Shown in pieces: positions 248 through 36,485 of a stretch of DNA of 36,495 nucleotides. The position numbers and the translations under genes were made by a program. The DNA is from Microcaldota archaeon. GTDB taxonomy: Archaea; Micrarchaeota; Micrarchaeia; Anstonellales; Anstonellaceae. Position 1 is the stretch's first letter. The number at the start of each line of letters is the position of its first letter. A model generated the notes under the pieces. The model did no database searches, was not told where the DNA came from, and saw nothing but the letters and a program-made list of their open reading frames with translations. The DNA lies in assembly GCA_018304295.1 (NCBI GenBank), contig JAGVWK010000003.1, forward strand, positions 1 through 36,495, read 5' to 3'.

Positions 248-327
248 TGCCGGGAAATAAGATGCGCATTTGTGCAAAAAAGAATGGAAGGAATAAAAAC
301 GCGCCCGTATATAGATAACACTCAATT

Positions 328-353
328 GCAGGGGTAGCAAAGCTTGGTCAAAT
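328..353 (+). pseudogene. tRNA-Leu 5' fragment (26 nt identical to start of tRNA-Leu CAG)
   Basis: GCAGGGGTAGCAAAGCTTGGTCAAAT at 328-353 repeats exactly at 453-478; no T-arm or acceptor 3' strand follows the first copy. Confidence 0.7.
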
Positions 354-452
354 ACCTAAACCGCGGAGGGGGACACCCCCTCCCCAGTTTTAGGTTTAAT
401 CCTGACCCTCCCCCGCTTGCTTTTATTTGTTTATGAACTAAAGTTATGTAAA

Positions 453-668
453 GCAGGGGTAGCAAAGCTTGGTCAAATGCGCAGGACTCAGAGAACCCTT
501 TTGCTCGCTCCAGATGGGTACGCTCGCAACAAGCTTTTTCGCTTCGGCGAAAAAGATGCGCCTTTTTGCCTTCAGGCAAAAAGTGCGAAGCGTTCACGGA
601 AAAATGGCAAGAGGGTTTCGGTAATCCTGTCGGTTAGCCGTTCGAGGGTTCAAATCCCTTCCCCTGCA
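453..668 (+). tRNA. tRNA-Leu(CAG) with an intron at 37/38 (about 493-623, 131 nt)
   Basis: Acceptor GCAGGGG/CCCCTGC, anticodon stem CAGGA/TCCTG, loop CTCAGA^A, T-arm GAGGG-TTCAAAT-CCCTT, long variable arm; oligo-T follows. Confidence 0.93.
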
Positions 669-11391: not shown

Positions 11392-12222
11392 TCAATGCCC
11401 TCGTCTTTTTTCTTCTTTTTGCGGCTCTTGTGCTGCTTCTTCTTTTTGCTCTTGTGCTGCTGCTTCTTTTGCAGTTTCGGGAGTGGAAGAAGCCTCTTCT
11501 GCTGAAGCCCCTGCAGCGGGTTGCGTTGTTTCCGCTGCCTGCGCATTGCCCCCCGGTGCGGCTGCGCCCGCGGCGGCTTGTGCTGCTGCTTTTGCTGCCG
11601 CAATTTCAGCCTCTGTTTTCTCGGGAGTTTCAAATTCCTCTATTGTTGCCTTGAACTCGTCATAAGAGGATATTTTGCCGCAAGCCATTGACATCTCGCG
11701 GGCAAGAAGGTAGAAAATGAGCGCAAGCGAGCGGCGCCCCTTATTGTTGCAGGGAATCACCCAGTCAAGGTAGGAGGTGTAGTTGTCCGTGTCGCACAGC
11801 CCGATTGTGCAGATGCCCATTTTCCCTGCCTCAAGCACTGCTTGGCGCTCCCCTTTGGGGTCGCACGTAAAAAGCAGCTTTGGCTCGGTAAAGTCGTCGC
11901 GGTGCACGTTTGTGAAGGTGCCGGGCACTATCCTCCCCGGAAGAAGCCGTGCGCCGCTTATTTGCGCGAATTTGGAGGCTGCGTTGCTTGAGTATGTGCG
12001 CGATGCCACCACTATTATGTCCTTTGGGTCAAAGGAAGCAAGCATTTTACCCGCCATCCTTATGCGTTCGTCAACCTTGCGTAAGTCAAGCACAAAAAGC
12101 CCGTCGTTGCGGGCTCGGTATATGAAGCGGTTCATGTCAACCACTTTCAGCTTTGTGCCGATGTGTATGCCCGCTTCAAGGTACTTTTCCTGCCTTATCA
12201 GCATGCTTTCTTTTTCGCTCAT
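11392..12222 (-). CDS. rpsB: Ribosomal protein uS2 with long Ala/Glu/Gln-rich C-terminal extension
   Basis: YLEAGIHIGTKLKVVDMNRFIYRARNDGLFVLDLRKVDERI; start MSEKESM at 12222 preceded by GGTGAAAC. Confidence 0.95.
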   Translation of the reverse strand: MSEKESMLIRQEKYLEAGIHIGTKLKVVDMNRFIYRARNDGLFVLDLRKVDERIRMAGKMLASFDPKDIIVVASRTYSSNAASKFAQISGARLLPGRIVPGTFTNVHRDDFTEPKLLFTCDPKGERQAVLEAGKMGICTIGLCDTDNYTSYLDWVIPCNNKGRRSLALIFYLLAREMSMACGKISSYDEFKATIEEFETPEKTEAEIAAAKAAAQAAAGAAAPGGNAQAAETTQPAAGASAEEASSTPETAKEAAAQEQKEEAAQEPQKEEKRRGH

Positions 12223-12236
12223 TGTTTCACCTTTTT

Positions 12237-12424
12237 GGGAGTCCCGCAGGCAATTTCCGTGAACGCTTTTTCGTGCGTGCCCATTGAGCGGACGCGAACG
12301 TCCGCGAGACAAGCAACCGAGGAAACCCCAAGGTTTCCAAGGCGCCTGACCGCGAGGTCAGCCGCGCCGAAGGTTGCTGCGTCTGGAGCACGAAAAAGGG
12401 TTCTGCCACTTTCGGGAAGCACCC
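12237..12424 (-). ncRNA. Candidate structured RNA or rpsB leader sharing a core with two tRNA introns
   Basis: Closing stem GGG(TGCT)TCCCG/CGGGA(CT)CCC, several strong hairpins (GCGGACG-TTCG-CGTCCGC, GGAAACC-TTGG-GGTTTCC, CTGACC-TCGC-GGTCAG), and the shared elements GAACCCTTTT, GCTCCAGA, ATGGGNACGC, GCGTTCACGGAAA. Confidence 0.6.
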
Positions 12425-12435
12425 GTTAATAAAAA

Positions 12436-12539
12436 TGGGGTCACCGTGATTTGAAGTTCCGAGAAGCATCTTTGAAATGCTCCTTCACGGATCGCCGCCA
12501 CCCCAAGGCGGTAGGTTAGCCAGGTTGCCCCATGACCCC
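12436..12539 (-). tRNA. tRNA-Pro(GGG) with a 30-nt intron in the T-arm (12456-12485, position 53/54)
   Basis: Acceptor GGGGTCA/TGACCCC-A, anticodon arm CCGCC-TTGGGGT-GGCGG, T-stem CCGTG/CACGG with loop TTCAAAT after removing the insert; BHB central helix TCCG:CGGA, bulges TGA and ACT, 8-bp intron helix. Confidence 0.92.
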
Positions 12540-16946: not shown

Positions 16947-17270
16947 CGCCGGGAATGGGATTTTCACCAACGGGCTGCAGCCAAATCTTCGGATGCGAAG
17001 AGGGGTTGAAGCCCTTAAGGGGAATTTCGGAAATGCTTATGTTCCCCTTATGGGGTTTGAACCCATACGGCCTTGCGACCACACGCTTTCTGGACATTTT
17101 TCCCTTTGTCTTCCGTTGACGTTTTCCGTCAACGCTTCGCACTTTTTGCCCGGAGGCAAAAAGGCGCATCTTTTTCGCCGAAGCGAAAAAGCTTGTTGAG
17201 CGCGTTCCCATCTGGAGCGCTCAAAAGGGTTGTTCCAGGCGTGCGCACTACCAGATTATGCGACCCCGGC
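16947..17270 (-). tRNA. tRNA-Ser(GGA) with two introns (17088-17232 at 37/38; 16961-17055 at T-loop 59/60)
   Basis: Acceptor GCCGGGG/TCCCGGC-G, D-arm GCATAATCTGGTAGTGC, anticodon arm CACGC-CTGGAA^A-GCGTG, variable arm GGTCGCAAGGCC, T-arm ATGGG-TTCAAA^T-CCCAT; BHB central helices CTGG:CCAG and TTCA:TGAA. Confidence 0.92.
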
Positions 17271-35324: not shown

Positions 35325-36485
35325 ATGGAGAACTGCAAGCAGAATAAAATACCTGCTGCCTTGATGGAGCAGGCAAGGAAACTAACGGCGTATGACCTGT
35401 TGAAGATTGGAAAAAATGCCGTTTATGGGGTGGCAGGAATACTCCAGACTGCGATTGAGGCAGCGGTAGCCGCCTCATCCATTGAGGCAACTGCAAAGGC
35501 TGCTGATGCAGACACTGTTTTCTATCATTTGGGAAAGCTCTCTGTTGAAGATACAGAAAGGATGCTCAAACAGCATGTTGGCAGGTCAGTGGAGCTTCTC
35601 AAAAGGAGGTTTGGCGGCAGGAAATATGCTGTTGCCATTGATTATACTGATGAGATGTTTTATGGAAACAAAAAGACAGAGGGAGTGGTTGGAACAAAGC
35701 GCAAGGGCAGCACCAATTATGCATTCCAATATCTCACTGTGAACATCGTTGTTGAAAACTGCCGCTTCTTCCTTTTTTCATATCCGATTTTTAAGAGGGG
35801 CGACAATTGGCGACATATAGAGAAGACGCTTGACATTCTGGAGGAGTTTGGGGTTAATGCGTATGTGCTGCTTCTTGACAGGGAATTCAACAACGGCATG
35901 ACGCTCAAGCTACTTGATGGGAGAGAATACGATTTCATAACTCCCTCAGATCAGGATAGCAAATTCATAAGATGGAAAGAAACAGCCAAAAAATTCCCTG
36001 CAATTTCAAGATGTTGGAAGGTGGCTGACGCAGAAACAACCCTCATAATGCTGCAAGAAGGAGAGCACGTTTATGGCTACCTCACAAACATTGAAGAGGA
36101 GTTTTATCGGGATGATGCATACATTTTGTCTTGGCTTTATTCCAAGAGATGGGGAATTGAGACTGCACACAGAGTGGAAGATGGATTCAGGATACACACC
36201 ACGACGAAAAATTGGATTGTGAGGTATTTCTTCTTCGTAATTTCCATCCTCATTTACAATCTGTGGGTCTGGGTAAATCTCAATTTCTGTCTCGTTGGGA
36301 AATTGAGGATTACTGTAGCCAAATTGAAGCGCATTCTGCTTTGCGCATTTGAGGAATTTTGGTTATGGCTGCGTTCCCCCCAAAGATGGTTCTCCATGCC
36401 CAGCCTGCAAAATGAAGGGAGAGGTTATTTTGCATGTTTTGGCAGGCTGCGCCTGCCAATTGGCAGCGCAACCGCGCTGCGCTGA
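35325..36485 (+). mobile_element. DDE transposase, ISH3/IS4-like
   Basis: VAIDYTDEMFYG, FLFSYPIFKRG, VLLLDREFNNG, YSKRWGIETAHRVEDGFRI...RYFFFVISILIYNLWVWVN. Confidence 0.88.

Follow-up and report, generated by a model that had tools for sequence, protein, structure and literature searches.

The origin and spread of archaeal tRNA introns are an open question. The Rickettsia palindromic elements resemble the element described here in being short palindromes that insert into RNA genes as well as, in frame, into protein genes. The leaders of ribosomal-protein genes, among them the bacterial S2 leader, are structured, covarying RNAs placed directly upstream of the start codon. According to the passage of PMC4090602 that cites Fujishima 2010, transposition of introns from tRNA to tRNA is known in Thermoproteales; intron gain with the involvement of a mobile element has been proposed for Caldiarchaeum (PMC3293823), and the group I introns reported from Micrarchaeota lie in rRNA genes (PMC6125680). 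Excerpts of two further papers (PMC4478555 and PMC2800124) describe mitochondrial GC clusters and repetitive hairpin elements as very short, non-coding, hairpin-forming mobile DNA.

Directly upstream of rpsB, the gene for ribosomal protein S2, the window (the whole 36,495-nt stretch of DNA that was analysed) carries two nested objects on its minus strand at 12424-12237, namely, a copy of a palindromic element and the rpsB leader within which it lies (Table 1). With a probability of about 0.78, we read this region as a conserved S2 leader hairpin in whose apical loop a miniature mobile palindrome, found widely across Micrarchaeota, has been inserted. The first-pass annotation had described four blocks here, AGAACCCTTTTT (12404-12393), GCTCCAGA (12389-12382), ATGGGCACGC (12284-12275) and GCGTTCACGGAAA (12266-12254), and these are indeed found on the minus strand, in the order it gave; taken singly they are slightly above chance, but as a set they are not a chance occurrence. 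Its statement that the same blocks occur in the introns of a tRNA-Leu and a tRNA-Ser gene is borne out, the Leu and Ser cores sharing 93% identity across 110 nt (E=1e-41), as is its placement of the extra hairpins: in the rpsB-proximal copy they sit within the CCAGA/ATGGG loop, and in the Leu and Ser introns they follow the stem. A further copy in the same genome, L003, has both hairpin insertions, in the loop and after the stem; it matches the rpsB-proximal copy closely through the hairpins that they share, which indicates that the two parted recently. Covariance model R1 matches the 3' part of the rpsB-proximal copy at 18.8 bits, and the region as a whole folds well beyond shuffled sequences (z=-5.2). 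The start codon of rpsB follows about 15 nt downstream of the leader, and the tRNA-Pro gene on its other side, which ARAGORN missed, has a homolog preceding rpsB in relatives. In agreement with the earlier impression that no RNase P, SRP or riboswitch is involved, an Rfam search gave no match between 12200 and 12560 up to E=10, a tRNA elsewhere being the only match in the window; neither the element nor the S2 leader is present in Rfam.

Table 1. Features of the rpsB locus and copies of the element in the window and in the rest of its genome
Feature	Position	Strand	Basis or remark
Element copy in tRNA-Leu(CAG) intron	493..602	+	tRNA 453-668, intron ~493-620
rpsB, ribosomal protein S2	11392..12222	-	Pfam PF00318 E=3.5e-22
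rpsB leader 3' arm GCCTGCGGGACTCCC	12237..12251	-	CM R2 match; covariation in 15 leaders
Mobile palindromic element copy, 150 nt	12254..12403	-	Long variant; hairpins inserted in CCAGA/ATGGG loop; N=G12403, N'=C
rpsB leader 5' arm GGGTGCTTCCCGAAAGTGGC	12405..12424	-	CM R2 match; covariation in 15 leaders
tRNA-Pro(TGG) with T-loop intron, directly upstream of leader	12436..12539	-	Sequence; homologues in relatives
Element copy in tRNA-Ser(GGA) intron	17123..17232	-	tRNA ~17270-16947
L003 copy	Between tRNA and Rpp21-like gene		Own genome
L006 copy	Start of 2-oxoacid:ferredoxin oxidoreductase-like gene		Own genome
L010 copy	Inside open frame		Own genome; product matches Pfam DNA_alkylation

The element follows the formula N-AACCC-TTTT[hairpin]AAAA-GCGTT-N'-ACGGAAA and has a minimal length of 33-52 nt. 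In the family of the host, the minimal unit is 52 nt (N AACCC TTTTGCTCGC TCC AGAT GGG CAC GCTCGCAAAA GCGTT N' ACGGAAA); in other families it goes down to 33-42 nt (e.g., TAACCCTTTTGTTGCGACAAAAGCGTTAACGGAAA), and the longer variants differ by hairpins only. The compensatory pairs that had been pointed out between the first few copies hold in a larger set, since the outermost pair is Watson-Crick in 25/25 distinct minimal copies and takes all four forms (C-G in 11, G-C in 8, U-A in 4 and A-U in 2, with no mismatch). In the same copies the second pair is A-U in 21 and G-C in 4, and the inner stem covaries too; all rows have a C-C mismatch at column 5/41. Two-sided changes occupy 49 cells, whereas shuffles give 18.1 and slid controls no more than 13. 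The complementarity of N and N' is broken by a few long copies (L093 and L099), and L092 contains N. The idea that N is always copied from the target flank does not hold generally, as orthologous tRNA-Gln and tRNA-Gly sites have different N; at L301, N falls within a direct repeat that ends exactly at N. G-U pairs are found in 0/344 paired cells of the main stem of the element and in 14/158 of those of the rpsB leader and, at variable pairs only, in 0/146 versus 14/147 (Fisher p=9e-5, with sequences that are not independent of each other). From this absence of G-U pairs we infer that the palindrome is kept up at the DNA level, e.g., by copying of the hairpin, and the comparison of the two pairing patterns suggests DNA-level upkeep of the element as opposed to RNA-level selection on the leader.

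A search with the core pattern over 84,980 species retrieved 16 stretches in six genomes, four of them titled Micrarchaeota and two being the family members G001 and G006, with no match beyond Micrarchaeota; the same pattern had 0 matches in the viral collection, in which no viral carrier was found. The covariance model recovers the element in 19/84 genomes of the order and in 30/295 of the Micrarchaeota genomes sampled, with up to at least 13 matches per genome where few candidates were scored in each. The genome of the window (G000, 1.05 Mb in 49 contigs) has further copies, matching down to E=1e-31, in the genes for tRNA-Tyr, Asp, Cys, Gly, Gln and two tRNA-Glu, in addition to Leu and Ser, and, beyond tRNAs, at L003, L006, L010 and rpsB. 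Overall, tRNA genes account for the majority of copies, which sit at the canonical intron position 37/38 or within the T loop and run in the sense direction. About 20 copies lie outside tRNA introns; they occur in either orientation, in leaders as well as at gene starts, stop codons and the 3' ends of tRNAs, and those at L062, L064 and L090 run antisense to genes. At L010 (412-1200, plus strand), the reading frame stays open through the element, which follows the third codon of a DNA alkylation repair gene and is in frame with it, and the protein may gain about 35 residues as a result. Another copy lies within the 23S rRNA gene of G163 (L316, 143-213, minus strand). In G251 the element forms four tandem copies with a 50-bp unit (L312, 246-436, minus strand), and in G111 two neighbouring elements each adjoin copies of one 49-bp segment, reflecting nested or serial insertion (L303, 125-350, minus strand).

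Orthologous sites with and without the element are available for several of these loci. In G001, from the same genus, the rpsB leader and the orthologs of L010 and L003 all lack it, G000 lacks it at the L062 and L071 sites of G001, and none of the other rpsB leaders of the family contains it. Direct repeats of 14-49 bp flank five of the roughly 20 free loci: those at the oxidoreductase-gene locus measure 21 bp in G000 and 49 bp in G001, and others measure 14 bp at L062, 16 bp at L069 and, in G111, 33 bp at L301 and 49 bp at L303. None were found at the remaining free loci or at the 14 tRNA copies checked. With its many copies, homologous across genera, and its presence or absence at orthologous sites, the element is a mobile miniature palindrome, and one that may act as a bulge-helix-bulge (BHB) tRNA intron; at single tRNA sites, loss through precise deletion instead of gain may account for the difference. 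The empty sites also decide against treating the rpsB-proximal element as a cis-regulatory RNA of that gene, the reading ascribed to the first-pass annotation. Its position in the 5' leader and the stability of the predicted fold would agree with such a role, but it is contradicted by the rpsB leaders of the family that do without the element, and near-identical cores sit in tRNAs and in an ORF, making this role very improbable. What stands of the proposed novel structured RNA class is its homology to the tRNA-intron core, its structure and covariation and its lack of an Rfam family; its membership of the rpsB mRNA does not, the element being scattered and variable in copy number.

The imperfect hairpin with a conserved mismatch (C5/C41) adjoining a conserved tail, ACGGAAA, is reminiscent of REP sequences and raises the possibility of an origin from a larger autonomous transposon, such as an IS200/IS605 or RAYT-like one, with the repeats as its relics. 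We consider this quite unlikely: G001, G006 and G018 have no Y1 transposases yet 6-9 copies each, and no longer common parent is seen, the longer variants differing by hairpins alone. Our search yielded no mobiliser: Y1 transposases did not track the element across genomes, and a RAYT was rejected for want of any correlation with the element or of an association like that seen for REP. Near the end of the window, a 386-aa ORF (35325-36485, plus strand) looks transposase-like by eye and has no Pfam match.

Several copies in tRNA genes can be compared with relatives. The tRNA-Leu(CAG) gene of G001 is syntenic, with identical exons and no intron, and the tRNA-Ser(GGA) ortholog in G001 also has the element intron, which is missing from the tRNA-Ser of G013. 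Together with intronless genes for tRNA-Asp (G001), Glu (G007 and G016) and Cys (G002), these orthologs or isoacceptors show that the spliced forms of the Leu, Asp, Glu, Cys and Ser tRNAs equal their intronless relatives, i.e., the tRNA copies, and these alone, occupy an intron position from which their removal would leave the tRNA intact. The 5' strand of the intron, (N)AACCCTTTTGC, can pair either with the element's own GCAAAAGCGTTN' or with a second strand, GCAAAAGGGTTN'', located downstream. In minimum free energy folds, the Gln (G013) and Cys (G008) pre-introns take the second strand, giving a BHB-like junction with TCC/GGA and ACGC/GCGT pairs inside, and in the Leu, Glu and Asp pre-introns the junctions are relaxed or less clear. 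Such a fold would account for the conservation of TCC and ACGGAAA. Free copies end at ACGGAAA and have neither the second strand nor the 3' half of the intron. With about 20 copies outside tRNA introns, the element is not confined to introns in the manner of BHB tRNA introns.

Seen from the tRNA side, the element might be primarily an RNA, i.e., a family of tRNA introns spread by reverse splicing or reverse transcription of the excised intron, with the non-tRNA copies as mis-insertions. Such an origin would fit the preponderance of sense-oriented tRNA introns, the two mutually exclusive conserved pairings (one of them BHB competent), the RNA-like apical insertions with UUCG loops and the copy inside the 23S gene, but not the main stem devoid of G-U pairs, the free copies that stop short of the 3' half of the intron, those that are antisense to genes or the long flanking direct repeats, which are unexpected from reverse splicing. 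We regard it as unlikely and favour the DNA-level mobile palindrome. An RNA function could nonetheless lie behind the conservation of the TCC, ACGC/GCGT and ACGGAAA blocks, the restriction of the tRNA copies to the sense orientation and the two alternative pairings. The possibility that the non-tRNA copies splice as mRNA introns was dismissed, no BHB being visible by eye at the oxidoreductase locus. A group I intron was likewise dismissed: GTTCACGG resembles an R element by eye, no group I catalytic core was recognised by Rfam in the window, the intron ends too soon, and the minimal copies measure 33-52 nt.

A second repeat family occupies the T-loop introns of tRNA-Pro, Ser and others, with CCTAGGGGGAAC...GTTCCGAAAGTCCCCCTGAGG...CACCCCCTCTTCGAAACCGAAGA in common and 77-83% likeness over 75-170 nt. 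It is found in the window at 3337-3166, 17062-16986 and 12539-12436 (all minus strand) and elsewhere at L004 (412-338), L208 (91-218) and L152 (615-534). At 303-420 (plus strand), a partial tRNA-Leu copy adjoins the real gene, with a 28-nt exact match to the 5' part of tRNA-Leu (326-353) followed by a different insert.

The novel conserved structured RNA at this locus is the S2 leader around the insertion, a part other than the one that the first-pass annotation described, even though its endpoints, 12424 and 12237, coincide with the then unrecognised outer stem of that leader. In the family, nearly all of the rpsB genes examined are preceded by the leader hairpin, and the leaders of relatives have in common UYCGARAGURGC ... 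GYYUGCGRR between variable complementary arms. A covariance model built from ten leaders (R2) matches the G000 leader at 12428-12231 (minus strand) with 24 bits despite its 153-nt insert, and also recovers those of G014, G002, G017 and G015, all outside the model; the leader of G005 aligns by eye without being recovered by the model, and some family genomes yielded no rpsB. Among 15 members, 88.8% of cells are paired, with no unpaired cell in the middle helix where both sides have letters, and two-sided change is seen at 10/12 pairs in an alignment fitted to the structure of the model; the original MAFFT alignment of ten sequences agrees with this, at 9/12 pairs. Two-sided cells number 35 in the 15 members, against 11.1 in shuffles and at most 15 in slid controls. 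A conserved, covarying structure upstream of rpsB is thus what is found, as in an S2 leader. The model did not find it in the other families searched, so it is known from one Micrarchaeota family. As to mimicry of the S2 site of 16S rRNA, the leader shows short degenerate matches only to the 16S rRNA of G013, where its 3' motif GYGYYUGCG also occurs. By its likeness to other ribosomal-protein leaders, it probably binds S2, and autoregulation of rpsB by S2 may be inferred on the same analogy. As the insertion leaves the three helices of the leader intact, it is probably close to neutral.

On the basis of these observations, we envisage a non-autonomous hairpin that would be copied into new sites at the DNA level, would sometimes duplicate 14-49 bp of the target and would tend to survive where it is tolerated. 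In tRNA genes, the 5' strand would pair with a copy of its partner further downstream (AAAAGGGTTN), giving a BHB intron removable by the tRNA splicing endonuclease, and such copies would persist because they splice; those in leaders and at gene ends would do so by folding into compact side hairpins. The copy at rpsB would be a passenger in the loop of the S2 leader, and the surrounding leader may bind free S2 and repress rpsB translation.

In the open-licence literature, we found no paper on the element. Set against the Thermoproteales introns, as the cited account presents them, it is a defined short palindromic unit that also lies outside tRNAs, in leaders, the 23S gene, gene ends and an ORF, in some cases with long direct repeats. 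Unlike the Rickettsia palindromic elements, from which to our knowledge it differs in sequence, it is archaeal, forms introns and is seen inserted in frame into an ORF once (L010). It is like the mitochondrial GC clusters, as the excerpts on them portray these, in being short, non-coding mobile hairpins, although the genomes differ; we know of no BHB intron role for the latter. With REP/RAYT elements it shares an imperfect hairpin, a conserved mismatch and an adjacent conserved short motif, but it has no associated Y1 transposase. The leader, in turn, resembles the bacterial S2 leader and other leaders of ribosomal-protein genes in being structured, covarying and just 5' of the start codon, and differs from them in being archaeal, without an Rfam match and found in a single Micrarchaeota family only.

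The leader is a candidate archaeal S2 autoregulatory RNA absent from Rfam, a role suggested by other leaders of this kind. Because a single short element with a clear formula occurs both in free form and as an intron of tRNA genes, and close relatives lack the intron, intron gain becomes datable and testable. More tentatively, and with somewhat less than even confidence, the element may represent an undescribed class of mobile hairpins from which tRNA and rRNA introns keep arising in an archaeal phylum: the insertion of the hairpin would itself supply a spliceable BHB intron, so that intron gain could be traced to a defined element, and the changing yet complementary terminal pair would reflect a step of pairing between element and target.
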